The translations under genes and the position numbers were made by a program. The notes under the pieces were generated by a model. It ran no database searches. It worked only from the letters and a program-made list of their open reading frames with translations, and had not been told where the DNA came from. Positions 25,809 to 63,372 of a stretch of 64,000 nt of DNA are shown one piece after another. Position 1 is the stretch's first letter. Each line of letters begins with the position of its first letter. Origin of the DNA: Propionispora vibrioides (GTDB taxonomy: Bacteria; Bacillota; Negativicutes; Propionisporales; Propionisporaceae); assembly GCF_900110485.1 (NCBI RefSeq), contig NZ_FODY01000003.1, positions 62,001-126,000 of the forward strand, read 5' to 3'.

Positions 25809-26573
25809 TTAGCTTTCCAAATGCCGTAAGGAACGGCCTCCGTCAACCACCAGTGTCTGTCCGGTTATCATGGCAGCATCGGACGTCAATAGGAAACATA
25901 CCGCACCGGCAATGTCTTCCGGCTGGCAGATTTTGCGCAGCGGGACTTCCTGAATGGTCTTAGCCAGCCTATCCGGTGTAAAAAACATTTTTACCATATC
26001 GGTTTCTGTCGGTCCAGGCGCCACCACATTAACTCTAATACCACAAGGTCCGAATTCCCAGGCCAGCGCCCGGCTCATATTAACAACGGCCGCCTTGGCG
26101 GCACTGTAAGGAATAGTGCCGCCCCGGGGAGCATAAATAGCCGACGTGGCAATATTGACAATGTCACCGCCACCTTGCTCTTTCATCCATTGGATGGCCT
26201 CCGTCGCACAATAGGCACTGCCTTTAAAATTGACATCAACGCCGCGGTCCCAGTCCTCCTGACTGAGTGCCAGGGCAGAATCACGGGAAATCCCCAATCC
26301 CGCGCAATTAATGAGAATATCAATCCGGCCAAACCGCTCTATGATCTGGGCAAACATGTCCCGCACCTCTTGCCGTGCAGCCACGTTAGCCTGAAATACG
26401 GCCGTACTGTTACCACTTGCGTCTAATGAATCCGCGACTTTCTGTGCCTCTGCCACACTGGTGGCGCAATTAATCACCACTTTGGCACCTTCCCGGAACA
26501 AACGCTCGACAATGGCTTTACCGATGCCTCGCGATCCTCCGGTGACCAGAGCCACCTTATTTTGAAGTATCAT
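25809..26573 (-). CDS. SDR-family oxidoreductase (FabG-like)
   Basis: 254 residues. Cofactor motif VTGGSRGIGKAIVERL, NCAG in ILINCAGLGIS, catalytic Ser in NIATSAIY and YSAAKAA for Tyr and Lys. The C terminus ITGQTLVVDGGRS is classical. The protein closely follows the FabG/sorbitol-dehydrogenase pattern; in this cluster a sugar-alcohol or ketose reductase/dehydrogenase is likelier than fatty-acid synthesis. AGGAGG lies 5 nt before the ATG, and it follows the zinc dehydrogenase gene by 9 bp. Confidence 0.9.
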   Translation of the reverse strand: MILQNKVALVTGGSRGIGKAIVERLFREGAKVVINCATSVAEAQKVADSLDASGNSTAVFQANVAARQEVRDMFAQIIERFGRIDILINCAGLGISRDSALALSQEDWDRGVDVNFKGSAYCATEAIQWMKEQGGGDIVNIATSAIYAPRGGTIPYSAAKAAVVNMSRALAWEFGPCGIRVNVVAPGPTETDMVKMFFTPDRLAKTIQEVPLRKICQPEDIAGAVCFLLTSDAAMITGQTLVVDGGRSLRHLES

Positions 26574-26582
26574 AGCATCCTC

Positions 26583-27620
26583 CTATGGAACTAACACAAT
26601 TTTAATCGCCTCTCCGGATTGGGTCATTTCAATGGCTTTTTCAATATCCTTGAGCGGCATCGTATGGGTGATATACCGTTTAGCATTGAGTTTTCCTGAA
26701 ACCACCAGATAGTAAGCTTGCTGCAAGTCCGAATCATTATATCCATAGTGCCCATATATAGTTAACAAGTTATAATGGATGGTATTTGTATCCAATTGCG
26801 TCATCTTACCTTTCGGTACACCGCCGAAAAAAACCACCACGCCCATTTTTCCGGCCATAGAAACCGCCTGCTGCTGGGCTTCGACAGCCGGGCACGCCGA
26901 TATAACGATGTCGGCTCCCCGCTGTTTAGTAATCTTGCGAACTTCCGCCACCGGATCTCGCTCGGCGGAATTAATAAGATAATCGGCACCGAATGCTTCA
27001 GCCATCGCCAGTCTTTGCGCCGATTGCTCCACAGCAATGATACAACTGGCACCCCGTAATTTTGCCAGTTCCACGTGCAGGCAGCCCACGGGTCCCATGC
27101 CAATAACAACGACCGTATCACCCAGCTTCACATCCACTTTCCTCTGACAAGCATATACAGAGGCCAGCGGCTCTACTAGAACCATTTCCTCATAACCAGC
27201 ATCTTCCGGCATAATTACATTCGTACCATGTTTCAGCAACTTTTCCGTAAGCAGCATATATTCGGCATAGCCCCCGGGAATATCCGTCCCTGGAACAACC
27301 AGATTTTCACAAAGCCCCTGCCAGCCTCGCCGGCAGGGCTCACATTCATGACAGGGAATCAGCGAACCTATATATAACCGGTCTCCGACCTTAAAGAATC
27401 CGGTAAACCGGCTGCCAACCTCTACTACTTCTCCGGCAATTTCATGGCCAATAATTTGCGGATACATCAATTTATGATGACCAAACCGGATGGATCGGAT
27501 GTCGGAGCCACATAGGCCTACAGCTTTCACCCGAATAAGAACCTCTTTATCACCGCATTGTGGTTTTTCCACTTCTTCATACATGAGGTTTCCTGGTCCA
27601 TGCAGCACTGCCGCCCGCAT
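26583..27620 (-). CDS. Zinc-dependent dehydrogenase (sugar alcohol type)
   Basis: Medium-chain dehydrogenase, 345 residues. Catalytic zinc residues in VGLCGSDIRSI and IIGHEIAGEV; structural zinc Cys in IPCHECEPCRRGWQGLC. Rossmann motif VIGMGPVGCL. A late HYNLLTIYGHYGYN block suggests a member of the L-iditol/sorbitol-type group acting on polyols or their phosphates. The ATG at 27620 is chosen since GAAGGAAATA precedes it; the frame is open nine codons further upstream. It follows the PTS IIC gene after a long hairpin (27653-27701). Confidence 0.88.
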   Translation of the reverse strand: MRAAVLHGPGNLMYEEVEKPQCGDKEVLIRVKAVGLCGSDIRSIRFGHHKLMYPQIIGHEIAGEVVEVGSRFTGFFKVGDRLYIGSLIPCHECEPCRRGWQGLCENLVVPGTDIPGGYAEYMLLTEKLLKHGTNVIMPEDAGYEEMVLVEPLASVYACQRKVDVKLGDTVVVIGMGPVGCLHVELAKLRGASCIIAVEQSAQRLAMAEAFGADYLINSAERDPVAEVRKITKQRGADIVISACPAVEAQQQAVSMAGKMGVVVFFGGVPKGKMTQLDTNTIHYNLLTIYGHYGYNDSDLQQAYYLVVSGKLNAKRYITHTMPLKDIEKAIEMTQSGEAIKIVLVP

Positions 27621-27652
27621 TATTTCCTTCACGGTCCACGCCTCCACTATGC

Positions 27653-27701
27653 TGATAGCAGCTAATACGGCAGGAATCCCGCCGTATTAGCTCTGCTATC
27701 A
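27653..27701. terminator. Long hairpin after the PTS IIC gene
   Basis: TGATAGCAGCTAATACGGC pairs with GCCGTATTAGC and TGCTATCA in a near-perfect stem of about 19 bp. On the minus strand no T run follows, so it may protect the upstream gatC message or reduce readthrough rather than fully stop transcription. Confidence 0.65.
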
Positions 27702-27714
27702 TATTATTTTGTTG

Positions 27715-28992
27715 TTAGATTCCGAACATGGTGTGCAGAGCTACAGCTCCCCAATAAGTGACCCAGGTGTACCATTGTGCGCCTACAGCCAAACAAGTCA
27801 TCTGAGCGGCACCTTCCGGCAGGCTAAGTCCGGCAGCCACACCCAGTTTAGTCATCAGCGGAGCACCAGCCGATGCCAGATACAGGATAATCGTTGAATT
27901 GACAGTTGCACAAATAATGCCTCTAAACAGGTTTCCTCTACTTGGAACAATGGAGAAAATATTGAAGAAAGTCAGAACGGAGAGGTCGGCAATCGGCAAA
28001 GTGGTATTTCCCGGCAATATAAAGGCCAAAAGCAAAGTAATCGGAATAGCGATTAAGGCTGTAGCCACTACGAAAGGATGGCCGATACCTACAGCGGCAT
28101 CCAAACCGATATACACTTCACGGCCCGGGAATCTTCTATTCATAAATTCGGAAGTAGCTTCTGAAATAACCATCAGGCCTTCCATCAACAGAGAAATCAT
28201 CTTAGGCAGCAATACCAATACGGCAGCTACGGCAATACCGACACCTAATACTGTCTTAAAAGGCATTTTGGCGAAACCGGCCAGTAAAACACCAATCATT
28301 AGACCAATCAGCATAGGTTCACCCAAGATACCCAGTTTCTCCTGTACGGTATCAGTAGTCCAGCGAATATTTTTAACACCAGGAATTTTGTCAAGCAGCC
28401 AGTTGATCGGATAGTCGATAATCGCCCATGATGTGGCTTGAATATGCGGTAGCGAAACGCCTTCCAGACCGAGTACTTCCTCGCAGTCCTTTTGCGTCCA
28501 GTCGGCCAGTTTAAATACCAGCGCCATATTAAGAATAGAGCTTAGAATAGCAAGAAAGAAACTGTTGGTCGTTCCGTAAATGATGGAAGCAGTAAATAAC
28601 GCATGCCAGTAGTTCCAAATATCCACGTCCATTGTTTTCGTCCAGTTCATCGCCAGCATGACAATGTTAGTGCCTAATATGGCTACGAAAACAAAGGGAA
28701 CAACAATAGTGCCCCAGGCCAGCGTTGCACCGACCGGCCAGCCCATGTCAATACTGGTAAGCTGAAACCCGTAGGTTTCAACCAAAGCCTTGGCAACAGG
28801 AGAAATATTATTAACCATCAAACCGATAACAATATTTAAACCGGTAAAAGCAATCCCGACGGTAATCCCGGCCCGAATAGCCTGGCTTAACTTGACACCT
28901 AAACCCAAACCTAATACTATAATAATGAGAGGCATAACAACGGCGGTACCCATATCAATTACATATTTAAAAAATCCTAACACTAAATCCAC
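27715..28992 (-). CDS. gatC: Galactitol-type PTS IIC permease
   Basis: Membrane translocator of a galactitol-family phosphotransferase system, 425 residues with about nine to ten hydrophobic segments. GatC family blocks include GTNIVMLAMNWTKTMDVDIW, YWHALFTASIIYG and FNRRFPGREVYIGLDAAVG (seen here as MNRRFPGREVYIGLDAA). It moves a polyol inward while the IIB partner phosphorylates it. GTG at 28992 follows GGGAGG by 7 nt. IIB is the gene immediately upstream; IIA lies further upstream at 33859. Family members in other Firmicutes take galactitol, ribitol, xylitol or arabitol, so the substrate is open. Confidence 0.94.
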   Translation of the reverse strand: MDLVLGFFKYVIDMGTAVVMPLIIIVLGLGLGVKLSQAIRAGITVGIAFTGLNIVIGLMVNNISPVAKALVETYGFQLTSIDMGWPVGATLAWGTIVVPFVFVAILGTNIVMLAMNWTKTMDVDIWNYWHALFTASIIYGTTNSFFLAILSSILNMALVFKLADWTQKDCEEVLGLEGVSLPHIQATSWAIIDYPINWLLDKIPGVKNIRWTTDTVQEKLGILGEPMLIGLMIGVLLAGFAKMPFKTVLGVGIAVAAVLVLLPKMISLLMEGLMVISEATSEFMNRRFPGREVYIGLDAAVGIGHPFVVATALIAIPITLLLAFILPGNTTLPIADLSVLTFFNIFSIVPSRGNLFRGIICATVNSTIILYLASAGAPLMTKLGVAAGLSLPEGAAQMTCLAVGAQWYTWVTYWGAVALHTMFGI

Positions 28993-29022
28993 AAAGATTC
29001 CTCCCTTTTCATTATCTTGGAG

Positions 29023-29316
29023 TTATTTCTTTAATACTTCCAGTATCTTCGCTTTAGTTTCCGGCAGCTTCATGCCGCTGAGGAAAGCCATACCGATTAT
29101 AATGGGAATTCCTTGTGTATCTCCCGGTACCTGAGTAGAACCTACAATTAAGTCTGCTTTCATGTTAATCGCTCTTTGTGCCGCTTCGGTTACTTTGCAG
29201 GTATCCACTGAAGCGTCAATTCCGTTCTCCTTGCACAATTGCCTTACCTTGTTGGCAACAACTGTAGAAGTTGCTATTCCGGTACCGCAGGCACACAAGA
29301 TTTTTTTGATTGCCAT
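29023..29316 (-). CDS. gatB: Galactitol-type PTS IIB
   Basis: 97 residues. The phospho-accepting Cys10 sits in the P-loop ILCACGTGIATSTVVANKV, with a preceding Cys8. It receives phosphate from IIA (33859) and passes it to the incoming polyol at IIC. AAGGAGG lies 8 nt before the ATG. The gap to the dehydrogenase gene upstream (29317-29481) holds a hairpin, TATCTGCCGGT/ACCGGCAGATA, at 29415-29443 without a minus-strand T run, and no other gene. Confidence 0.94.
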   Translation of the reverse strand: MAIKKILCACGTGIATSTVVANKVRQLCKENGIDASVDTCKVTEAAQRAINMKADLIVGSTQVPGDTQGIPIIIGMAFLSGMKLPETKAKILEVLKK

Positions 29317-29481
29317 AATCCCATTCCTCCTTAACGTTTTTTATTTTTTGCACAAATTGAAACCCGGCTTTCCCGCATCACCTCTCAAGACCAAATTGTA
29401 TATTACAAGAAGTGTATCTGCCGGTCTCCTACACCGGCAGATATTCTTTTGTAACCTAAGATAAAGGTGCTCCAAGAAAAT

Positions 29482-30516
29482 TCACCTGGTCGGGTCTAGC
29501 ATAACTTTCAGGCCCTGCTTATTTTCCACGATGGCAAACGCTTCTTGCCATTCGGACATGGGCAATACATGAGAAATCACCGCTTTGGCATTAACCTTGC
29601 CGTTTTCAATCAACTTCAACGCCTTACCCCAGGAACTGGGGATTTGGCTGGATGAACCGAATACGTTCAGTTCGCGCTGCTTGATCTGATAATAATCCAC
29701 TTCAATCGGACGGGGGAAATAACTCATGGGAATAAGAATCCCATCCTTGGCCGTTATTTTCATGCTCATATCTACAGCCGGCCTGGCTCCAGTGGCTTCG
29801 ACCACCACGTCGGCCCCATAGTTTTCGGTATAGCTTTTGACCACCGTTTCCAGATCTTCTTTCGCAATGTCCACCGTCCGGTCAATGCCTAAGGTAAGCG
29901 CCAGATCCAGCCGTGCCTGGTCAGGCGTAAGACCTGCCATGATCACAAAGGCTCCTTGCGCCTTGGCGACCTGAGCCGCTAACAAACCGATAGCGCCGGG
30001 CCCCAGGATGACGACAACTGAATCGACGCACACATTGGTCCGCTCCATCAGGGCATGTACCCCGCAGGCCAGTGGTTCTACCGCAGCGCCTTCTTCAAAG
30101 CTGACCGAATCCGGGAGTTTCATAATGCTTTCTTCCCGGTTGACCAAGTATTCGGCAAAACCACCGTTAGCTACCGATCCTATCCCCTGACGGGAGATAC
30201 AGTGGTTCAACTGGCCTCTCCGGCAGAACCGGCAGGTTCCACAAACCCGGTAGGTTGTCTGTGTCAGCACGCGGTCACCGGGTTTAAATTGGGTAACGCC
30301 TTCGCCTACAGCATCCACCACACCGGCTACTTCGTGGCCGAGAATAACCGGCGGTTTTAACGGTGCGCCGCCTACATGGTAATAGTCCAGGTCGGTATGG
30401 CAAATACCCGACCGCAATACTTTCATACGCACCTGACCCGCAGCCGGTTCCGGCGTGGGCACCTCTCTGAGTTCCAAATTGCCAGGTCCTTGCTCAAATT
30501 TAACTAACGCTTTCAT
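29482..30516 (-). CDS. Zinc-dependent alcohol/polyol dehydrogenase
   Basis: 344 residues. Zinc ligands in SGICHTDLDYYH and ILGHEVAGVV; structural Cys in RVCGTCRFCRRGQLNHC. Rossmann motif ILGPGAIGLL. The His-Thr-Asp in the CHTD motif is closer to alcohol dehydrogenases and to some ribitol/arabitol-phosphate dehydrogenases than to sorbitol dehydrogenase. The ATG at 30516 lies 8 nt after GGGAGG, and the gene overlaps the end of the epimerase gene (30500) by 17 bp, implying coupled translation. Confidence 0.88.
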   Translation of the reverse strand: MKALVKFEQGPGNLELREVPTPEPAAGQVRMKVLRSGICHTDLDYYHVGGAPLKPPVILGHEVAGVVDAVGEGVTQFKPGDRVLTQTTYRVCGTCRFCRRGQLNHCISRQGIGSVANGGFAEYLVNREESIMKLPDSVSFEEGAAVEPLACGVHALMERTNVCVDSVVVILGPGAIGLLAAQVAKAQGAFVIMAGLTPDQARLDLALTLGIDRTVDIAKEDLETVVKSYTENYGADVVVEATGARPAVDMSMKITAKDGILIPMSYFPRPIEVDYYQIKQRELNVFGSSSQIPSSWGKALKLIENGKVNAKAVISHVLPMSEWQEAFAIVENKQGLKVMLDPTR

Positions 30517-31192
30517 ATTCATGTCCTCCCAACATAGCCGAAACCCGCATATCCTGCACCAGCTTCGTGTAGTCGGCTTCCGGTCCCTTGAAGATGGAAG
30601 CCGTGCCGCCTACCAGAATGTTCGCTCCTGCCGCCACAGCCGGCGGGATGGTCTGGCCGTTAATATTCCCGTCCACCTGAATCAGTAAGTCGGGTTTCTT
30701 TTTAAGGCTTATTTTTTTCAATTCTCTAATTTTTTCAATCATGGCGGGAATGAATTTTTGTCCGGCATAACCGGGGTCAACCGTCATGATCAGCACCATG
30801 TCCAGCTCGGCTAAAACATATTCGATGTGGGAAAGCGGAGTGGACGGATTCAGGGCCACAGCCGCCCTAATTCCCCGTTTTTTTATCATCTGAACGGCCC
30901 GGTGCAAATGCGTGGCCGCTTCGGCATGGATGGAAATATATCCTGGCTGCAGGTCGGCAAACTGGTTTAGGTATCTTTCCGGCTCAACAATCATCAAATG
31001 GATGTCCAGCGGAATACTCGTAAATTGCCTGATCTGCTCCAGCATAGAATGGCTCATGGCCATATTGGGAACATACAATCCGTCCATTACATCGCAGTGC
31101 AGCAAATCGACTTTTGCCTCTTCCAGCCTTTGCAATTCCTTTCTTAACTCCAACTGGTCGGCACACATCATGGATGCGGCAATTTGTATCAT
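30500..31192 (-). CDS. Ribulose-phosphate 3-epimerase family, possibly allulose-6-phosphate epimerase
   Basis: 230 residues, TIM-barrel epimerase. Metal and catalytic blocks: LLHCDVMDGLYVPN, the LDIHLMIVEP segment, and MTVDPGYAGQKFIPAM for the second Asp. The wording PSTPLSHIEYVLAELD and DPGYAGQ resembles AlsE (D-allulose 6-phosphate 3-epimerase) as much as Rpe. It is the second of two epimerase-like genes in a row; their different sequences suggest different ketose-phosphate substrates, for example ribulose 5-phosphate and a hexulose phosphate. GGGAGG lies 8 nt before the ATG. Confidence 0.88.
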   Translation of the reverse strand: MIQIAASMMCADQLELRKELQRLEEAKVDLLHCDVMDGLYVPNMAMSHSMLEQIRQFTSIPLDIHLMIVEPERYLNQFADLQPGYISIHAEAATHLHRAVQMIKKRGIRAAVALNPSTPLSHIEYVLAELDMVLIMTVDPGYAGQKFIPAMIEKIRELKKISLKKKPDLLIQVDGNINGQTIPPAVAAGANILVGGTASIFKGPEADYTKLVQDMRVSAMLGGHEYESVS

Positions 31193-31267
31193 GGTGATTC
31201 CTCCCGTCTCTCGGCACCTTTACAGCCTTACCTTGCCTTGTAACCAATCTGTTTTTGGTTAGCCGCT

Positions 31268-31924
31268 TTATTTAACCAGAGCAACAAATTCTTCCAGCGT
31301 ACTTTTAGTCTTTCCTCTTTGAAAAGCAGCCGCCCCAATTACGATATTTTCCGCACCAGCCTCAATAAGCTTGTTAATATTGTCCTTATTAATGCCGCCG
31401 TCTATCTGAATCGCAAACCCATACTGGTTGGCCTGTTTTATTTCTGACAACCGTTTTATTTTTTCGGTTAATCCGAGAATGGTCTTTTGCCCGCCACAAC
31501 CGGGATTGACTGTCATAATCAAAACCTGATCCAGCAAATCATACACATAATCCAACACATCAAGCGGCGTCCCCGGATTAAGGGCTACACCTGCCTGTTT
31601 ACCCAGGCTCTTGATTAATTGAAGCGTTCTGTGCAAATGGACACAGGCTTCGGCGTGCACGGTGATGACCTCAGCACCTGCCTCCGCATAACGAGGAATA
31701 TACCGGTCCGGATTGACCACCATCATGTGCACATCAAATTTCAACTTGGTCAGCGGACGGAGCATGCTAACCTGATCAGGGCCAAAGGCAATGTTGGGAA
31801 CAAAGCTGCCATCCATCACATCGACATGCAGTTCGGTAATGCCACTGGCTTCTATAGCTTTTAGCTCCTCTGCCAAATATCCCATATCAGCGGCAAACAG
31901 CGAGGGTTGTATGATAACACTCAT
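31268..31924 (-). CDS. rpe: Ribulose-phosphate 3-epimerase
   Basis: 218 residues. PSLFAADMG, LHVDVMDGSFVPNIAFGP, FDVHMMVVNP and LIMTVNPGCGGQK give the metal and catalytic set; the second catalytic Asp of the DPG motif is replaced by Asn (VNPG). That substitution is unusual for Rpe, where this Asp acts as one of the two acid/base residues, so activity or substrate could be altered. Downstream IQIDGGINKDN holds the phosphate-site loop. It interconverts ribulose 5-phosphate and xylulose 5-phosphate in the family. AAGGAG lies 5 nt before the ATG. Confidence 0.87.
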   Translation of the reverse strand: MSVIIQPSLFAADMGYLAEELKAIEASGITELHVDVMDGSFVPNIAFGPDQVSMLRPLTKLKFDVHMMVVNPDRYIPRYAEAGAEVITVHAEACVHLHRTLQLIKSLGKQAGVALNPGTPLDVLDYVYDLLDQVLIMTVNPGCGGQKTILGLTEKIKRLSEIKQANQYGFAIQIDGGINKDNINKLIEAGAENIVIGAAAFQRGKTKSTLEEFVALVK

Positions 31925-31973
31925 ATGATCTCCTTCTTCTACTATATTTGGTTATTATTCAAACAGGGTGGGG

Positions 31974-32723
31974 CTACGAGGCGTACGTCCGGCCTCCGTC
32001 AACCAAAATGATCTGACCATTTATATAGCTGGCCTTATCGGAGGCCAGGAACACGCATAACTCAGATATGTCCTCCGGCAAACCTACTCGGCGCACCGGA
32101 ATGCGGTTGATCACGCTCTCCCGGGCCGGGCTTCCCTGCGGATATAAGGCATCCAGCATTTCTGTCTGTATGACCCTGGGTGCAATGGCATTGGCTGTAA
32201 TCCCCTTTGGACCAAAATCACGGGCCAAATTTCTCACCAGGGCGTTCTGTCCGGCCTTGCTGGCCGCATAGTGCGCCCCGCCGCCGCTGCCAGTGGCAGC
32301 CGATCCGGAGGATATGATGATGATTTTACCGGCTCCCTGTGCCACCATATGGGGCAATACGGCCTTTAGCGTATAAAAAGTACCTGTTAAATTAATGGCA
32401 ATTACCCGGCTCCATTCCTCCGGACTGATATCCAAAAGATTATTATGGGCTACGATGCTGGCATTGGGAACCAGGATATCAAGCTTACCGTATGAGTCCA
32501 TAATTTGCTTGACTGCGTTCTGTACATCATCAAACTTGGTTATATCCAGAGGGATAAAGGCAGCCTCACCACCCTTTTGTTTAATGAATTCGACGGTTTC
32601 ACCGGCTTTAGGCAAAATATCGCCAATGATTACCTTCGCTCCTTCGCGAGCCATATCTACGGCGATTTGCCGCCCGATTCCCTGTGCTGCTCCGGTAATA
32701 AAAGCAACCTTGTTTGTAAGCAT
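31974..32723 (-). CDS. SDR-family oxidoreductase (sorbitol-6-phosphate/polyol type)
   Basis: 249 residues. Cofactor motif ITGAAQGIGRQIAVDM; an Asp follows the second strand (IIGDILPK), which favours NAD over NADP. NAS in VPNASIVA, catalytic Ser in IISSGSAATG and YAASKAG. C terminus YINGQIILVDGGRT. The pattern fits sugar-alcohol or sugar-alcohol-phosphate dehydrogenases. AAGGAGG precedes the ATG. It lies between the SIS isomerase gene and rpe. Confidence 0.9.
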   Translation of the reverse strand: MLTNKVAFITGAAQGIGRQIAVDMAREGAKVIIGDILPKAGETVEFIKQKGGEAAFIPLDITKFDDVQNAVKQIMDSYGKLDILVPNASIVAHNNLLDISPEEWSRVIAINLTGTFYTLKAVLPHMVAQGAGKIIIISSGSAATGSGGGAHYAASKAGQNALVRNLARDFGPKGITANAIAPRVIQTEMLDALYPQGSPARESVINRIPVRRVGLPEDISELCVFLASDKASYINGQIILVDGGRTYAS

Positions 32724-32756
32724 ATAGAAAAGCCTCCTTAAGAGAAGAGAATAGGT

Positions 32757-33368
32757 TTATCCCTCGCCTTTTAGCTCACTGCCGCGAGCTCCTCCTTGGT
32801 GTAAAAAGCCAAAATCGGCCAAGGTAGTTCCCTTCTTTTTCATAACTGCCATGGCTAAAATATCTCCCATAGCCATAGTCAGCGTTGTCGAAGTAGTTGC
32901 TGAAAGTCCCAGCGGACAAATTTCCTTTTCAACGGTAATATCCAATATAGCATCACTGTGTTGACCTAAGATGGAATCCGGCTTGGCGGTAAAAGCGATT
33001 AGTTTCACACCGATCCGTTTCAACGCCTGAACCAATCCTCTTTTGATTTCATCACTGTTGCCACTGTTGGAGATAAAAATCACTACATCCTGCTGCTGCA
33101 CAGCGCCCAGGTCACCGTGAAACGATTCGGCCGCGTGCAGAAAAAAGGCTGGGATACCGGCACAAGCCATGGTGGCCGCAATTTTATGAGCAACAATTCC
33201 TGATTTGCCTACGCCGGTTAAAATCACCTTGCCCTGGCAGTGATGCACTAGATCAACCGCCGTTTTAAACTCTTCATCAATTCTTGCTGCCGCTGTCAAC
33301 AGAGCGTTGGCTTCTTCCCGCAAACCGTTGCGCCCATATTCCAGCAAATCAAACTCCGTCTGTTCCAT
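32757..33368 (-). CDS. SIS-domain sugar-phosphate isomerase, GutQ/KdsD-like without CBS domains
   Basis: About 203 residues with a single SIS domain. VILTGVGKSGIVAHKIAATM, FFLHAAESFHGDLGAV and ISNSGNSDEIKRGL are the arabinose-5-phosphate isomerase blocks, followed by CPLGLSATTSTTLTMAMGDI with the GLxxTTST region. It lacks the CBS pair of KdsD/GutQ, like some shorter homologues. The reaction would be ribulose 5-phosphate to arabinose 5-phosphate, or a related aldose-ketose step. In a polyol cluster it parallels GutQ of the glucitol operon. ATG at 33368 follows AAAGGAGGAG; the longer upstream frame is not needed and overlaps the gene before it. Confidence 0.88.
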   Translation of the reverse strand: MEQTEFDLLEYGRNGLREEANALLTAAARIDEEFKTAVDLVHHCQGKVILTGVGKSGIVAHKIAATMACAGIPAFFLHAAESFHGDLGAVQQQDVVIFISNSGNSDEIKRGLVQALKRIGVKLIAFTAKPDSILGQHSDAILDITVEKEICPLGLSATTSTTLTMAMGDILAMAVMKKKGTTLADFGFLHQGGARGSELKGEG

Positions 33369-33397
33369 TCTCCCGTCTCCTCCTTTGCCGTGAAGCA

Positions 33398-33802
33398 TTA
33401 CAGGCGGCTGCATAGTTCTTTCACATACAGATGATTAACATTAAGCTTTTCAGCGTATTTTTCCCCATCAGGCCAGACCACCCAATAGTCCCGTTTACCC
33501 ATGATGCACATATACTTCGGCAGGGCATCAATCATTTGTTTCCATTCACCCACAACGCGGTGGGCCAATTCTTCGGTGTTTATATCCTGCTGGGTTGCTT
33601 TAATGTGACGAATCCGTTCCCTGATAAACCGCTCGCTCCGCCGCGGCAATATGGCGCGGTAATTATAGGCCGCTACGGTAATAAACAGTCCGTAAACCAT
33701 ACCAAAGGCATAAATGAAATACTCATAATGTTTGGCAAACTCAAAGGCCATCTGGCCCGGAATCCCTAGAAAAAACCGCATATAGCCGTCAATAAAACTC
33801 AC
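33398..33802 (-). CDS. Unrecognised protein with one membrane segment in the polyol operon
   Basis: 134 residues, no family recognised. One hydrophobic segment (about residues 24-48, with YFIYAFGMVYGLFITVAAY) near the N terminus, then a basic helical stretch RAILPRRSERFIRERIRHIK and an acidic/aromatic tail with DYWVVWPDGEKYAEKL. It begins with GTG at 33802 behind GGAGGGG. It lies between gatA and the SIS isomerase gene, tightly packed, so it is very probably co-transcribed. The cytoplasmic basic tail after a single membrane pass would suit an accessory of the PTS permease, but nothing shows this directly. Confidence 0.75.
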   Translation of the reverse strand: MSFIDGYMRFFLGIPGQMAFEFAKHYEYFIYAFGMVYGLFITVAAYNYRAILPRRSERFIRERIRHIKATQQDINTEELAHRVVGEWKQMIDALPKYMCIMGKRDYWVVWPDGEKYAEKLNVNHLYVKELCSRL

Positions 33803-33858: not shown

Positions 33859-34347
33859 TCAACTATTGACTGCTTTTTTAAGCTCCTGTAAATAGGATTG
33901 AACCAATTCGACAATTCTTTCCGACTCGGTACAGACAATCAATTGATTCATCAATGGGGCCACCGAAAACAATCCGATCAGATCCTGCAGCAATTGTATC
34001 TGCATATTGGGATCTTTAATAGCAAGCATGAACAATAGTTTGACCTGCACAGCTTCACCGGGATAGCCCATCATGCCGAACTCAATAGGTTCTTTCAATA
34101 CGCCAATGGCAATACCGGGCCGTATAACATGAACCGAGTCAGTATGAGGAATGGCTACGCCAAATGTTTCGGTAGGCAGCCCCGTGGGAAAGATCTGTTC
34201 CCTGGCAAGCACCGCTCCCGGATAGCTGTCTTTTACAAAACCATTTTCCAGAAACAGTCCCGCTAAAGCGCTGATTGCCTCTTCCTTTGTCTTAGCCTCC
34301 AGAGTGGTTCCAATAAAACCTGTTTGTTCCGCAATTTCGTTGTTCAC
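33859..34347 (-). CDS. gatA: Galactitol-type PTS IIA
   Basis: 162 residues, PTS EIIA type 2 (fructose/mannitol/galactitol). The phosphorylated His is in FGVAIPHTDSVHV. Other blocks are the FLENGFVKDSYPGAVLARE N-terminal helix region and the VKLLFMLAIKDP strand. It takes phosphate from HPr and passes it to GatB. It is the first gene after a sigma-54-type promoter (34451-34468), giving a leader of about 90 nt. GTG at 34347 follows GGGAGG by 7 nt. IIA is five genes upstream of IIB and IIC, an unusual separation within one operon. Confidence 0.93.
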   Translation of the reverse strand: MNNEIAEQTGFIGTTLEAKTKEEAISALAGLFLENGFVKDSYPGAVLAREQIFPTGLPTETFGVAIPHTDSVHVIRPGIAIGVLKEPIEFGMMGYPGEAVQVKLLFMLAIKDPNMQIQLLQDLIGLFSVAPLMNQLIVCTESERIVELVQSYLQELKKAVNS

Positions 34348-34450: not shown

Positions 34451-34468
34451 TTGCAAGTTGCGTGCCAA
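34451..34468 (-). promoter_or_regulatory. Sigma-54 (-24/-12) promoter of the gatA operon
   Basis: On the minus strand TTGGCACGCAACTTGCAA: TGGCAC, 5 bp, TTGCA, a near-consensus -24/-12 element. It lies about 100 bp before the gatA start and on the correct strand. The region 34380-34627 otherwise has no gene. Upstream of the element, at 34547-34557, is the sequence CCATATTTCAC, shared with the second sigma-54 promoter region. Confidence 0.85.
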
Positions 34469-34546
34469 CCTGGTGGCAGATTTCGCGAGGCCTTATTTCT
34501 CTGGGCCGTCCCGGTTTAGTCATTATATCGCTCACGTTTTCACCCA

Positions 34547-34557
34547 CCATATTTCAC
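34547..34557 (-). promoter_or_regulatory. Candidate LevR-type activator site
   Basis: Minus strand GTGAAATATGG, about 80 bp upstream of the -24 element; followed at 34537-34542 by another GTGAAA. The same 11 bp occurs at 35763-35773 upstream of the other sigma-54 promoter. Confidence 0.45.
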
Positions 34558-34627
34558 AGTCCGGGAACTAATTCTGCCACACTTTATTCCAACATAGCGG
34601 CAATCGTTGTGCACAAATCAGACAAAA

Positions 34628-35656
34628 TCAGTCAAATACAATGCAATTTTTTATTACTTTCCCTGATTTATGTGACAAAATAGCCTTCTCAATTTCATCA
34701 AGCGGATAGCGGTTGCCAACAAAATCCCTGGCCGTAATCATTCCGTTTTTGATCAAATCGAAGGCAATCTGCACATGTCGGGGTGTCGTGTGAAAGACTC
34801 CCTTAATGGTCAATTGGGAATAATGCAGCAAGTTGGCATCAATGGAAACAGCGGTTCCTGCTTTTGTTCCGCCAAAGAGTAACACTTTGCCACCTTTGCG
34901 GGCCATGTTTATGGTTTTTTCCCACAATTCCGTCTGCCCGACGGCTTCAATGGCCACATCCACCCCCCGCTGATTTTCCGTGTGGCTTCGAACGATTTCC
35001 ACCGCATTGCCTGCCTGTCCCGGATTGATGGTAACGGCAGCTCCCATATTTTCAGCTAGTGCCAGACGTTCGTCGGAAAGGTCGGTGGCAATTACCCTGG
35101 CCCCGCGGTAATGGGCCAGACGGACAAACATCAGGCCAATTGGCCCGGCACCGTTGACAACGACGGTGTCGCCGGCTTCAATACCAATTTGATCAATACC
35201 ATAGACCGCACAGGAAAAAGGCTCTACCAGCGCGGCATCGGCAAAATCCATCGTGTCAGGAATATGAAACACATTTTGCTTAACGATGGCCACCGGGATT
35301 TTCTCATATTCGGCAAACGCCCCTTGGTTAAACGTGATATGGTCACACATGGAATGCTGTCCCTGCTTACAGTAAAAACAAACATTGCAGGGAGCGGAAT
35401 TGTGGGCCACCACCCGGTCTCCCACCTGAAAGCCGACAACTCCTTCACCGACCTGTGCCACCACTCCTGCCGCTTCATGACCAAAACCATAGGGCGGTTT
35501 AAACAGAGGATACCCTCGCACATAGGTTTTGACATCGGTGCCGCAGGTAAGTGCTACCTGATTTTTGATAACCAATTCACCTGGTCCGGCTACCGGCACT
35601 GGTACTTCTTCCACCTTTACGTTTTCCGGGCCGTAAAACATGGCTGCTTTCATCAT
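34628..35656 (-). CDS. Zinc-dependent dehydrogenase under its own sigma-54 promoter
   Basis: Medium-chain dehydrogenase, 342 residues. Catalytic zinc residues in ALTCGTDVKTYV and GFGHEAAGVV; structural Cys in APCNVCFYCKQGQHSMC. Rossmann motif VNGAGPIGLM. The HTTPRHVQIAFDLI stretch near the C terminus is a mark of a subgroup seen with sugar-alcohol PTS genes. ATG at 35656 lies 5 nt after AAAGGAG. It is the first structural gene downstream of the LevR-type regulator gene and has its own -24/-12 promoter at 35722-35739; a second such promoter before gatA begins the rest of the cluster. Confidence 0.88.
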   Translation of the reverse strand: MMKAAMFYGPENVKVEEVPVPVAGPGELVIKNQVALTCGTDVKTYVRGYPLFKPPYGFGHEAAGVVAQVGEGVVGFQVGDRVVAHNSAPCNVCFYCKQGQHSMCDHITFNQGAFAEYEKIPVAIVKQNVFHIPDTMDFADAALVEPFSCAVYGIDQIGIEAGDTVVVNGAGPIGLMFVRLAHYRGARVIATDLSDERLALAENMGAAVTINPGQAGNAVEIVRSHTENQRGVDVAIEAVGQTELWEKTINMARKGGKVLLFGGTKAGTAVSIDANLLHYSQLTIKGVFHTTPRHVQIAFDLIKNGMITARDFVGNRYPLDEIEKAILSHKSGKVIKNCIVFD

Positions 35657-35721
35657 AAACACTCCTTTATCTACCGTTTCAAATAACCGCCACTGTCAAG
35701 TGGCTGCTCACCCTTCTTAGA

Positions 35722-35739
35722 TTGCAAGATTCATGCCAG
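35722..35739 (-). promoter_or_regulatory. Sigma-54 (-24/-12) promoter of the first dehydrogenase gene
   Basis: On the minus strand TGGCATGAATCTTGCAA: TGGCAT, 5 bp, TTGCA. It differs from the gatA promoter only in the last base of the -24 box and in the spacer. It lies about 66 bp before the start codon. Upstream are CCATATTTCAC (35763-35773) and the related ACATAATTTCAC (35784-35795). Confidence 0.82.
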
Positions 35740-35762
35740 GCATTTGACAGATTATGCGCTGG

Positions 35763-35797
35763 CCATATTTCACCGCTAGTGCGACATAATTTCACGG
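35763..35797 (-). promoter_or_regulatory. Candidate LevR-type activator site pair
   Basis: On the minus strand GTGAAATTATG and GTGAAATATGG, two copies of a GTGAAATA-like motif about 22 bp apart, just upstream of the sigma-54 promoter. The second is identical over 11 bp to the motif upstream of the gatA promoter. Confidence 0.45.
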
Positions 35798-35798
35798 C

Positions 35799-35844
35799 AA
35801 AAAAAAAACATACTATGATGACGGGTTTCACCGCACATAGTATG
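35799..35844 (-). terminator. Terminator of the LevR-type regulator gene
   Basis: On the minus strand CATACTATG pairs with CATAGTATG and is followed by a run of ten T, 24 bp after the regulator stop. Confidence 0.85.
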
Positions 35845-35867: not shown

Positions 35868-38831
35868 TTAAGGTAGCAGCCTGACTTCCAAAAAAGCGTT
35901 TTTTATTTCCTCCGTCGTATGTAAACGAACCAGACTTCTTAAAAAGGGTTCATCTTCCAACAAGGTGATAACATAGGTGACTTCCTCAGTGGCTTGCTCC
36001 GTGATGGCCAGCATGGCAACAATATCTGCCATACCGTCATCGGACCAGTATATCGGTTCATTCAGTATAGCGATAGCCATACCGGGCTTGATCACGTTCT
36101 CCAGACTACCATGAGGAATGGCCGCCTTGCTTTCCAGTAAGGTATACCCCATGACCTCCCTTTTGTACACGTCCAGCAGAAATTCGGGAGTTACATAGCC
36201 CTTTTCAATCAAAAGATTGGCCAGGCAATCCAATACCTCCTGTTTGGTGGTATAGGCCGGTCGAACAACAATCAGTTCCGGGTCAACAAAATCCGTCAGC
36301 GGCGACCGCACGTCCGTCACAGCCAAACCACTGCCTAACACAATGTCCCGCAGCCGTGCCGCAGCACGGCCGTCCAACATTTCCTCCACCGTGACAAAAG
36401 GTATGGCAGAGTTCTTCGGCCGCAGGCTGCCTACAATGGCAACCACCGTATAGGTCTGTTGTATCTTTTCAATTCGCTCCTGGATATCCTCTTTACCGGT
36501 AATTCCCAGTGTGATGATTTCCACCTGGTCACATAGCTCAGGCACCATTTTCTCGATAAGCTGCTTAAATTTTTTCGCTGTTCCCTCCCCGGTGATGCAG
36601 ATGGTAAGGATTGCCTTATTGTGCTGCTTGTCCGCATCAGCCGGTTGGGCAATGAACCGCCCCAGACCGACCTTGTCGGTATCGATAGTCTCCGCGATTT
36701 CACTAAGCTGCGTATCCGGCAGCATGGCCCGTCTTACGGCCTCCAAAACCATAACAGTATCCACTCTGGGAACGGTAAAGGTAGGAATGTTGGTTTTTTG
36801 GGTGATCAGCTCACCAAAGGTAATTAATGAACCCATGTCGGCAAGCAGCAGTACTCCCTTACCTTCATCAATCTGCTTAACTAGTTCCACCGCTTTATGC
36901 AAGGCGGCTTCCGGCCTTTCATCCAGCGACATCTCCAAGGCTCTGGCGTGGTGAACACCAAGCAGGCAATTGGCAACTTCCACCATTCCGGCAGCCACTT
37001 TGCCATGGGACATAACCAGCACTCCTACCCGGCCCTGCCGGCTCTCCTCCCGATGGGTCATAGCCCGTAAATACATGGCAATAAACCCGATTTCATCCTC
37101 CGGTAGAGTAAACTCTGTCTTATCAGCTATGGCTGCCAGCATCTTTTGGGCTATGCCATATTCCTCAGTATACTGTTTCTTAACCTTGGCAAGCTGTGGA
37201 TTGACCACCGGCTTGCCTTTTTGCAAGCGTTCCAGCGTAGCCCCGATATGAATGGCCAAATAGTAGAGAAGCTGCTTGTCCACCTTGCCCAACTCATTTT
37301 CTGCCACTTTGACCATGGTCTCCGCAAGATCAACAATCGGCTGCCCCACCAGATCGACCAGGTTTTGCGAGATCATGGTGTGATCATAATGATTGACTTT
37401 CTGAGCAAACTGACGAAACTGAGCTTCCAGTTCACTGTCAATCATCCGGTTGATTTCTTCTTGGTTCAGCCCCTTGGCCTGCAGTTCCTGATAGCTGGTT
37501 TCAATAAAATCATATATTTCCCGGGGAAGCACATACAGATCATCCATTTGTAGCAGACTTTCCCCTTTGTCGCCGGGTTTGACGACCAGATCGCCGCGTA
37601 CCAGGTTTTCCACTTCCTGATTCCGGCTGTGTACATGGGTCAAACCGCGCCGCGCGTGAAGCGGCAAATCCAAAAGATTAATCTCCACCATCTTATGTCG
37701 TTCACTCAGACAAGTAAGAAAGCCCCTGGCGCAAGCCACCTGAATATCACTGCGCAACTGCCCGACATTACCCTGGCAGTCATAAAGCAGCAATGTGTGC
37801 AGCACCGGTTGGGGAATTTTGATTTTCATTCCGATACGATCGGCTTCCTTGCTTAAAAACTCCCGCACCATTTCATACCGTTCCAGCACCGTCCGTTCGG
37901 CTAGAGGCGGCAGTTCGATCACCATGGGAATCCGTCGTCGGAACGTGAACAGCAAAGAGGATTCGGCCTCTTCACTAGTCGCCGCAATGACCAGCACCTG
38001 TACCTTGCGGGGCTCTCCGGTTTCCCCCATACGCCGGAACGTGCCTTTATCGATCAAATGAAATAATAACTCCTGCCCTTCCGGCGGCAGCCGATGGACC
38101 TCATCCAGAAACAGTACACCGCCATCAGACTGTTCGACCAACCCTTCCTTCGCGCCGTCCGCGCCGGTAAAGGCCCCCCGGACATAGCCAAATAACTGGG
38201 ATAACAGCATCTGGGGATTTTCCGCATAATCGGCGCAGTTAAAAGCGATGAATTTTGCTTTCCGGGAAATCCGTTCGCATTCCACGGCGTACCGGTACAT
38301 AGCCTCTGCCAGATAGCTTTTCCCCGAGCCGGTCGGCCCCAAAATCAGGGTATGCAGGCCAAAGGGAGGATACAGGACCGCCGCCTTGGCCTGTTGAATT
38401 TGTGGTTTCAGGGTGCCCGACCAGCCGACCACCTGTCTGAAGGTAGCCGCAGCCTGCCGGTTAATCTCCGGCAGTTTTTCCCCGCTCTCGCCGACAGCCT
38501 CCGACGGTTTTGCTTCACTTCCCTTCGCCGGCATATCAGGCAGCCGTTCCCGCCGGAGCTGCCCTACAGTAAAGCGCGACACAATAAATCCTTCCTTATT
38601 CAATTCAGCCGTCAGTTCCCGGTCGGAAATTTTCGCCCGTTTCGCCAGAATGGTCTGAAAGGCCTCCAGCAAATAGGGTTCGCGGCGCTTTCTTGAATCA
38701 GGAAGCTGCAACTCATTGCGCAGTGAAGTCACTTCGTCGCGGCGAATTTTCAATATTCCGGCTATTTGATCGTCAGTATATGGATTTTTTTTATCTTCAG
38801 CATTGACAATTTCCAGTAACTTCTTTTTCAA
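35868..38831 (-). CDS. LevR-type sigma-54-dependent PTS-controlled activator with EIIA C terminus
   Basis: 987 residues. Domains in order: N-terminal helix-turn-helix region (1-95); AAA+ sigma-54 activation domain with Walker A GPTGSGKS (165-172), the sigma-54 contact loop GAFTGA (219-224) and Walker B GGVLFLDEVH (237-246); PRD (about 455-595); mannose-type EIIA with the phospho-His in VMSHGKVA (His609); galactitol-type EIIB-like part with Cys745 in LTICITGEGTA; and a type 2 EIIA domain with His907 in KAAIPHGS. In the Bacillus subtilis LevR layout the C terminus is a second PRD; here an EIIA domain takes its place. It should sense PTS phosphorylation state and activate the -24/-12 promoters next door. 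TTG at 38831 follows GAGGTGA. Confidence 0.93.
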   Translation of the reverse strand: MKKKLLEIVNAEDKKNPYTDDQIAGILKIRRDEVTSLRNELQLPDSRKRREPYLLEAFQTILAKRAKISDRELTAELNKEGFIVSRFTVGQLRRERLPDMPAKGSEAKPSEAVGESGEKLPEINRQAAATFRQVVGWSGTLKPQIQQAKAAVLYPPFGLHTLILGPTGSGKSYLAEAMYRYAVECERISRKAKFIAFNCADYAENPQMLLSQLFGYVRGAFTGADGAKEGLVEQSDGGVLFLDEVHRLPPEGQELLFHLIDKGTFRRMGETGEPRKVQVLVIAATSEEAESSLLFTFRRRIPMVIELPPLAERTVLERYEMVREFLSKEADRIGMKIKIPQPVLHTLLLYDCQGNVGQLRSDIQVACARGFLTCLSERHKMVEINLLDLPLHARRGLTHVHSRNQEVENLVRGDLVVKPGDKGESLLQMDDLYVLPREIYDFIETSYQELQAKGLNQEEINRMIDSELEAQFRQFAQKVNHYDHTMISQNLVDLVGQPIVDLAETMVKVAENELGKVDKQLLYYLAIHIGATLERLQKGKPVVNPQLAKVKKQYTEEYGIAQKMLAAIADKTEFTLPEDEIGFIAMYLRAMTHREESRQGRVGVLVMSHGKVAAGMVEVANCLLGVHHARALEMSLDERPEAALHKAVELVKQIDEGKGVLLLADMGSLITFGELITQKTNIPTFTVPRVDTVMVLEAVRRAMLPDTQLSEIAETIDTDKVGLGRFIAQPADADKQHNKAILTICITGEGTAKKFKQLIEKMVPELCDQVEIITLGITGKEDIQERIEKIQQTYTVVAIVGSLRPKNSAIPFVTVEEMLDGRAAARLRDIVLGSGLAVTDVRSPLTDFVDPELIVVRPAYTTKQEVLDCLANLLIEKGYVTPEFLLDVYKREVMGYTLLESKAAIPHGSLENVIKPGMAIAILNEPIYWSDDGMADIVAMLAITEQATEEVTYVITLLEDEPFLRSLVRLHTTEEIKNAFLEVRLLP

Positions 38832-61842: not shown

Positions 61843-63372
61843 TTATGACGAAAGTCTTTCCTTCTGGAAGAAACCGTCCGCCGCCCGGTAGGAGGAGCGC
61901 ACCAGGGGGCCGCTGGCGGCGTGGAGGAAGCCGAAGCTTTCCGCCAGCTCCCGGTAGTGCACAAACTGCTCGGGTGCGACGTATTCTTTGATGGCAATAT
62001 GCTGAGCTGACGGTGCCAGATATTGCCCTACGGTCAGGAAGTCACAGCCAATAGATCGAAGATCGGCCAGAACAGCAGCCACTTGAGCCGGGGTTTCCCC
62101 CAGCCCAACCATAATGCCCGATTTGGTCTTAATGTGAGGGGCTTGGCGTTTCACATAGTCCAATACGGCCAGAGACCGTTGATAGTTAGCCTGCGGGCGA
62201 ACCTCGCTATAGAGGGCAGGCACGGTCTCCACATTATGGTTAATGACTTCCGGCCGGGCCGCGATGACCGTATCCAGCGACGCTTCGTTACCTTGCAGGT
62301 CGGGAATTAATACTTCAATCAGCGTACCGGGCGCAATTCGCCGGATAGCCTCAATCGTACGGGCAAAATGCCCGGCGCCGCCGTCCGGCAGATCATCACG
62401 GGTTACCGAAGTAATGACCGTATACTGCAGTCCCAGGCGCTTCACCATGTGGGCTACCCGTTCCGGTTCTCCCGCATCCACCGGCTGTACCGGCCCTTTC
62501 TGCACGGCACAGAAACGGCACTGCCGCGTACACTGGCTGCCCAGAATCATAAAGGTAGCCGTACGGCTGGCATAACACTCCCCCATATTGGGGCAGTGAG
62601 CGCCGGAACAAACGGTGTTTAACGATAGCTCATCCAGCATACCGTGAACCTCGCTGGCATTCTGGTTACTGGCAACCCTTCCCTTAAGCCAGGACGGTGG
62701 CCGGGTATCGCCCAGCCAGCGTCCATCGGTTTCTGTCACGGCAGCAATCTGAAAAACCGCTTGGAAATGAGCGATCAGACGGCTGCGCACTTCCTGCATA
62801 GCCGGGGCTGTTCCCAGCAGTTTTTCCATACTGGTTACGCCCCTGCCTTGAATACCGCAGGGAGTAATAAAAGAAAAGTACGATAAATCGGCGTCTATAT
62901 TCAAGGCAAACCCATGAAAACTGAGCCAGTTGCGCGCCCCGATCCCGATGGCGCAAATTTTGTCCTCACCAACCCACACACCGGTATATTTCTCATCCCG
63001 TCCGGCGATGATGCCGAAATCGGCCAGCGTGCGAATGATCACTTCCTCCAGGTTGTGAACATAGGCATGGACATCCTTACCGTAACGCTTCAGATCAAGC
63101 AGTGGATAGCCTACCAACTGACCCGGTCCGTGATAGGTAACATCGCCGCCCCGGTCCACATGATATACTTCACACTGTTTTTCCTTGAGCGTCAGACTAT
63201 CCACCAGAATGTGTCCGTCCACACCGCTCCGCCCGACTGTAATGACCGGTGGATGCTCCAGCAGCACCAGCACATCCTCATCGGCTTTGCCCTGCCGCCG
63301 CGCTTTGGTATAGCTCTCCTGGAACTGCCAGGCATGCTGATAAGGAGTCAGACCCCAGTTCAGTACAAGCAT
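61843..63372 (-). CDS. LipB-LipA fusion: octanoyltransferase plus lipoyl synthase
   Basis: A single 509-residue frame joins two lipoate-pathway enzymes. Residues 1-225 are LipB, octanoyl-ACP:protein transferase: VGRSG, HVDRGGDVTYHGPGQLVGYP, GEDKICAIGI with the catalytic Lys138 and ITPCGIQGRGVTS with Cys172. Residues about 225-509 are LipA, lipoyl synthase, a radical SAM enzyme: auxiliary-cluster Cys255, Cys260 and Cys266 in CSGAHCPNMGECY, the radical SAM CxxxCxxC set Cys281, Cys285 and Cys288 in CTRQCRFC, and the C-terminal RSSY motif (492-495). The join has no stop or start codon and no obvious frameshift. GAGGG lies just upstream of the ATG at 63372. A dihydrolipoyl dehydrogenase gene precedes it, fitting lipoate-dependent complexes. 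Confidence 0.95.
   Translation of the reverse strand: MLVLNWGLTPYQHAWQFQESYTKARRQGKADEDVLVLLEHPPVITVGRSGVDGHILVDSLTLKEKQCEVYHVDRGGDVTYHGPGQLVGYPLLDLKRYGKDVHAYVHNLEEVIIRTLADFGIIAGRDEKYTGVWVGEDKICAIGIGARNWLSFHGFALNIDADLSYFSFITPCGIQGRGVTSMEKLLGTAPAMQEVRSRLIAHFQAVFQIAAVTETDGRWLGDTRPPSWLKGRVASNQNASEVHGMLDELSLNTVCSGAHCPNMGECYASRTATFMILGSQCTRQCRFCAVQKGPVQPVDAGEPERVAHMVKRLGLQYTVITSVTRDDLPDGGAGHFARTIEAIRRIAPGTLIEVLIPDLQGNEASLDTVIAARPEVINHNVETVPALYSEVRPQANYQRSLAVLDYVKRQAPHIKTKSGIMVGLGETPAQVAAVLADLRSIGCDFLTVGQYLAPSAQHIAIKEYVAPEQFVHYRELAESFGFLHAASGPLVRSSYRAADGFFQKERLSS

Follow-up and report, generated by a model that had tools for sequence, protein, structure and literature searches.

A galactitol-type PTS operon of Propionispora vibrioides has two sigma-54 promoters near its start, each preceded by a short inverted element that is kept in three species, and the activator encoded just upstream starts with a domain that, judged from sequence profiles and a structure model, is a homolog of the part of sigma-54 that recognizes the -24 element. 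We consider it likely that the activator docks on the inverted element, which would be an operator that resembles the -24 element in mirror image and lies right next to it, switching on both promoters. The analysis covered a stretch of 64,000 nt (positions 62,001–126,000 of contig NZ_FODY01000003.1; here, the window), together with the genome sequence and those of two sister species, G002 and G003, whose orthologues of the activator are 96 and 73% identical, respectively.

The operon and its sigma-54 promoters

The operon lies on the minus strand and starts with the genes for a zinc-dependent sugar-alcohol dehydrogenase (34628..35662; Pfam ADH_N/ADH_zinc_N) and a gatA-like PTS EIIA (33859..34347; PF00359), whose nearest NCBIfam model is galactitol IIA, with a score under the cut-off of that model; isomerase, epimerase, dehydrogenase, GatB and GatC genes follow. 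From its ORFs and their families, the remaining operon (25809..33802) encodes a small protein, a SIS isomerase, an SDR, two ribulose-phosphate-epimerase-like proteins, dehydrogenases, GatB, GatC and an SDR. The 134-aa protein encoded after gatA (33398–33802, minus strand) has a hydrophobic N-terminal stretch, and no Pfam family over the cut-off and no NCBIfam family was found for it. By its gene families the operon is of the galactitol-type PTS/polyol type, and its substrate is likely a polyol or pentitol. The activator gene is directly upstream of the operon, on the same strand, and is followed by a putative intrinsic terminator read from the sequence (35799..35844, minus strand; CATACTATG...CATAGTATG plus a run of ten T). 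At the corresponding place in G003 (L022), between the activator stop codon and the promoter, there is a perfect inverted repeat with arms of around 25 bp and no T-run.

Two matching sigma-54 promoters had been proposed before gatA and before the first dehydrogenase gene, and both are borne out as exact matches on the coding strand of the operon that are kept in both sister species. Promoter P1 (TGGCACGCAACTTGCA, minus strand, 34467..34452) precedes gatA and promoter P2 (TGGCATGAATCTTGCA, minus strand, 35738..35723) precedes the dehydrogenase gene, so the sites are where an earlier note had placed them (34451–34468 and 35722–35739), except that their true ends are one base inside each of the ends quoted there. 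Both are perfect copies of TGGCAY-N5-TTGCW, with GG and GC at the fixed spacing, and are the only exact matches to this pattern in the window, where they occupy the two large gaps of the operon head; under a first-order Markov model, the chance of one sense-strand match per gap is around 2e-7. Genome-wide, the pattern occurs at 39 sites, vs. six for a reversed control pattern, and there is a single, intact copy of rpoN. Because the matches are far beyond chance, the genome is enriched for such sites and rpoN is intact, we accept P1 and P2 as real predicted sigma-54 promoters, ordinary and well supported.

Conserved and non-conserved elements upstream of the promoters

The combination TCTGYCA-N6-TGGCAY-N5-TTGCA survives in all of the promoters compared (6/6, from three species), while the gaps that contain them diverge. 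The proposed proximal operators O1 (TGGCAGATTTCGCGA, or TCGCGAAATCTGCCA on the coding strand; 34474..34488, plus strand), for which TCTGCCA-N6-TGGCAY is kept in the three species, and O2 (TGACAGATTATGCGC, or GCGCATAATCTGTCA on the coding strand; 35745..35759, plus strand), which is also kept in the three, are inverted and lie each 6 bp from its -24 TGGCA. Before gatA there is a proposed distal copy (TGGCAGAATTAGTTC; 34565..34579, minus strand), 112 bp upstream of the -24 element of P1 and in the orientation opposite to that of O1; the inverted TGGCAGA copy TGTGGCAGA, at around 110 bp from this -24 element, is likewise kept in the three species.

TCTGYCAN6TGGCAY is found at only three places in the 4.4 Mb genome, corresponding to P1, P2 and a site inside a fumarase coding region. 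The latter match (C2:221695) is kept in the relatives, but we consider it as coding because it is inside the fumarase gene. In the three genomes, the pattern occurs at both promoters and at a few other places, and those of the others that are shared between species fall in the fumarase coding region. Occurrences in regulatory DNA of TCTGYCA placed 6 bp before a -24 element are, genome-wide, solely P1 and P2, and no second regulatory target was found in a search of the three genomes; therefore, the regulon of the activator, as predicted from these sequences, is probably P1 plus P2. Two further matches were discarded. A promoter-like match at C4:237150 is a hairpin, with no suitable gene downstream. 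The best matrix match in the window (25924–25938, plus strand) is inside the last SDR gene of the operon and is also present in G002; it is taken as a coding coincidence, since G003, in which the coding of the protein differs, lacks it.

The binding sites of the activator had previously been sought in an 11-nt word, CCATATTTCAC (GTGAAATATGG on the coding strand), and exact copies do occur in both upstream regions, at 34547–34557 and 35763–35773 (plus strand). There are seven copies in the genome, and a shared word of 11 nt or longer appeared in 3.3% of dinucleotide-shuffled versions of both gaps (P = 0.033, uncorrected for the choice of the word after reading the sequence). Further GTGAAA variants exist at both promoters, and not at the second alone as described before; one GTGAAA variant lies inside the loop of the terminator of the activator gene. 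That the copies of this word are upstream activating sites is, however, very improbable. In G002, in spite of the 96% identical activator, the first copy is substituted and the second is broken by a one-base deletion (one copy reads GTGAAATATAG there), and P2 lacks the additional variant; no copy is left in G003, whereas both promoters and TCTGYCA-N6-TGGCAY are intact. Additionally, the word is at unequal distances from the -24 element (79 or 24 bp, depending on the gap), and the seventh genome copy overlaps a -24 element beside an NtrC-type activator, which may be a coincidence. We rejected the word as an operator for its lack of conservation in the sister species; both copies are probably not binding sites, and the TCTGYCA-based site replaces it as the better supported candidate for recognition by the activator.

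An RpoN-box-type N-terminus in the activator

The RpoN box is the domain of sigma-54 that reads the -24 element. Residues 1–104 of the activator match sigma-54 RpoN-box sequences, not a winged HTH, and PF04552 is recovered with 28.1 bits using the whole protein and 37.2 bits using its N-terminal part, over a gathering threshold of 22.8. A profile of 27 such N-termini, all of which match PF04552 (27/27), retrieved the sigma-54 RpoN structures 2o8k/2ahq with E = 4e-11, and its first 23 matches were all sigma-54. As sole query against genomes of the phylum, the N-terminal region found around 35 activator-sized proteins and, more weakly, around 40 proteins of the size of sigma-54. The protein is not a sigma-54 factor proper, since the match comprises the last 55 of the 160 positions of PF04552, fused to AAA+, PRD and EIIA domains, and region I and the core-binding and ELH-HTH regions of sigma-54 are absent from it.

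In the structure model of the activator there are two HTH units, and most of residues 1–97 have pLDDT >90. Its top Foldseek match was 2o8k, with an E-value (0.017) that is modest because it involves 50 residues only, and the best rows obtained with VIA-align were sigma-54 chains, with rmsd of 1.2–1.4. Together, the Pfam, profile and Foldseek matches indicate that the first domain (residues 1–50; 38682..38831, minus strand) is a homolog of the RpoN box. The second HTH (residues 53–97; 38541..38675, minus strand; pLDDT of about 90–97) can be aligned to the RpoN box by eye and with MAFFT, and an Arg of the box is conserved among the copies that were compared; nevertheless, its sequence homology to sigma-54 is weaker, and its origin is less certain because, in the profile search, the nearest relatives of known structure are arginine repressors. 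A second Arg, important for binding of sigma-54 to the -24 element, is replaced in both activator domains, and therefore their specificity should differ in part and identical base reading is not to be expected.

The description of the adjacent protein as a LevR-type activator holds for its central part and has to be amended at both ends. From Pfam and an alignment of paralogues, the gene (35868..38831, minus strand; 987 aa) codes for a PRD-containing sigma-54 activator, with the AAA+ domain for interaction with sigma-54 (PF00158, residues 138–294), which includes GAFTGA, followed by PRD1 (PF00874, 505–589) and EIIA-Man (PF03610, 603–712). However, it begins with the RpoN-box-type HTHs, and the place of a C-terminal second PRD is taken by EIIA_2 (PF00359, 848–981), a single PRD stretch being found.

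Two kinds of LevR-type proteins coexist in the genome, with nine of the 21 having RpoN-box N-termini (the window's included) and twelve a winged HTH; by locus, the first kind includes L001–L008 and L010 and the second L009 and L011–L020 (genome G000). Alignments with the activator reach residue 938–987 of the query for the RpoN-box kind and end by residue 842 for the winged-HTH kind, with EIIA_2 in the former where the latter ends in a PRD-like region; EIIA_2 was verified by Pfam in the window's activator, two paralogues and a Clostridioides difficile relative. Four RpoN-box activator genes (L004, L005, L007 and L008) have a sigma-54 promoter right before their own start, which suggests that these activators self-activate, while that of the window lacks one.

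Association of the element with RpoN-box activators

Footprints deduced from orthologues in other activator groups, GGCAGATAATGTTA (distal) in group C, GCRCAAAAYGTGTCA-N5-TGGCAC in group D and CTAACATAATTGACCAC-N5-TGGCAC in group E, align in one orientation with the sites from the window. When the window was scanned with a matrix made from these three groups, O1 and O2 ranked first and the distal copy second in the P1 gap; this result is supporting but not blind, because the blocks were picked after the window's motif was known.

The operator is associated with the RpoN-box activator class. Using a matrix made from the sites of the genus at a fixed position (offset -20 to -22, minus orientation, threshold of 4 bits), 13 of 50 non-redundant promoters of RpoN-box activators from other groups scored over 4 bits, vs. 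none of 41 promoters of winged-HTH LevR types (Fisher, 2e-4). Promoters were assigned to either set with a sequence rule and two corrections (L004 and L123 were put into the RpoN-box set), and four matches within IIB genes were taken out. The promoters include those of Thermoanaerobacter, Clostridium, Anaeromonas, Pelosinus and others, and the matches cluster at offsets -22 to -20, almost none having a different offset or orientation. A comparison of ranks alone was marginal with two offsets (p = 0.047) and gave 0.0025 with three. About three quarters of the RpoN-box activator promoters lack the element at the fixed place, and a single motif for all these activators was rejected, as groups B, F, G, H, and I are without it there and the last four of these use other sequences. 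For instance, promoters from group H (L008, L083, and L084) contain strongly conserved GGAAAATGTAAGC and TTTTTGTA-TGGCAC, unlike the operator of the window. Promoters of winged-HTH LevR-type activators (L160–L190 and the own winged-HTH loci of the genome) often contain GATACAC, or a similar sequence, 8–14 bp upstream of the -24 element; both kinds may thus share the presence of a promoter-proximal element.

These distributions also bear on whether the conserved element could be the site of another regulator, or a part of the promoter that extends it upstream and is recognized by the polymerase, as would suit a sequence abutting the polymerase footprint. We consider this quite improbable: among the other sigma-54 promoters of the genome, the element was only present at that of one more activator of the same class (group D), and it is absent at the 41 promoters of winged-HTH activators.

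A putative mechanism of activation

In the mechanism that we favor, the product of the adjacent upstream gene would activate P1 and P2, and its RpoN-box-type domains would bind TGRCAGA-N-WTNGCG (TCTGYCA on the coding strand); we infer this binding from the sequence features described above. In a sigma-54 promoter, GG and GC have to be separated by 10 bases, and in the operator TGGCAGATTTTGCG the distance is 8 bases. The operator would thus amount to a sigma-54 promoter with shortened spacing, on which the activator could sit but the polymerase should not. The two tandem HTHs, around one helical turn apart, might read the two halves of the operator. Likewise, the mirror-image placement 6 bp upstream of TGGCAY would put the activator beside the RpoN box of sigma-54 itself, with activator and holoenzyme side by side at around one helical turn. 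The signal would presumably be a PTS-dependent phosphorylation of the PRD and EIIA domains, set by the substrate, that controls the ATPase.

Classical bEBPs act from 80–150 bp upstream, and an operator abutting the -24 element is therefore unusual and could repress, or compete with, the polymerase. Indeed, TCTGYCA-N6-TGGCAY could be a single palindromic operator over the -24 element, on which the activator competes with the holoenzyme as a brake, whereas activation would occur from the distal site. TGCCA-N6-TGGCA is an inverted repeat, P1 has the distal copy, and in several paralogues the element is found before the gene of the activator, as would suit autoregulation. Nevertheless, this arrangement seems unlikely, because the symmetry is limited to 5 bp: the operator goes on with GA (TGGCAGA), while the -24 arm has C/T, as the promoter demands. 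Additionally, other groups have 5 or 7 bp between the operator and the -24 element, the left arm thus behaving as a site in its own right, and P2 has no convincing distal site. Activation, and not repression, from the proximal site is the reading we prefer for both promoters, although the distal copy of P1 would fit ordinary looping as well.

Comparison with known systems

PRD-type sigma-54 activators control many PTS operons of Firmicutes. The LevR type is exemplified by LevR from Bacillus subtilis and CelR from B. thuringiensis, and corresponds to type II of Francke et al. (2011) (PMC3162934; PMC10864463). In common with this type, the window's activator has an N-terminal DNA-binding region, a central AAA+ domain with GAFTGA, a PRD and EIIA-Man, and its gene adjoins a sigma-54-controlled PTS operon; conversely, it has tandem RpoN-box-type HTHs instead of the winged HTH of the twelve other paralogues, EIIA_2 in the place of PRD2, and a proposed operator that abuts the -24 element. 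The best-matching curated model for PRD activators is that of DagR (NCBIfam NF047795), which aligns over residues 126–830, leaving both ends of the activator outside; with 475 bits against a cut-off of 1400, the protein does not qualify as a DagR equivalog. A reconstruction in Clostridiales (Nie et al.; PMC6615313) provided UAS motifs, based on a Fis-type HTH, for 263 of 490 activators and listed 48 PRD activators.

CD0040 from C. difficile is called LevR-type in a promoter map of this species (PMC7438776), as the activator of a PTS operon of the galactitol family for which a SigL promoter was predicted. The promoter sequence of the C. difficile relative in our set (L128) is the one published there for CD0040, and its domain plan is that of the window's activator, with PF04552 at residues 1–51; unlike in the window, its promoter lacks a TCTGYCA-type proximal element. 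The passages of that article considered here contain no mention of the RpoN-box domain, and we found no description of RpoN-box domains in activators in the open-access papers searched.

The C-terminal domain of sigma-54 (RpoN) on -24 DNA (PDB 2o8k) is the top match, both in sequence and in fold, of the first domain of the activator and its homolog. The activator differs in that it contains no other region of sigma-54, has a turn shorter by five residues, lacks the second Arg of the box, and carries two such domains in tandem. We regard as an evenly balanced proposition that an activator class from Clostridia and Negativicutes captured and duplicated the domain with which sigma-54 reads promoters, and employs it to bind a shortened promoter copy, in mirror image, beside the -24 element, so that activator and sigma factor would read related DNA next to each other. 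Activators with a DNA-binding domain related to sigma-54 and a putative operator at a fixed position form a subclass that is set apart here from classical LevR; it supplies a search rule, a test of an activator working right beside the polymerase, and a case of an activator that shares its DNA-reading domain with the sigma factor that it serves.
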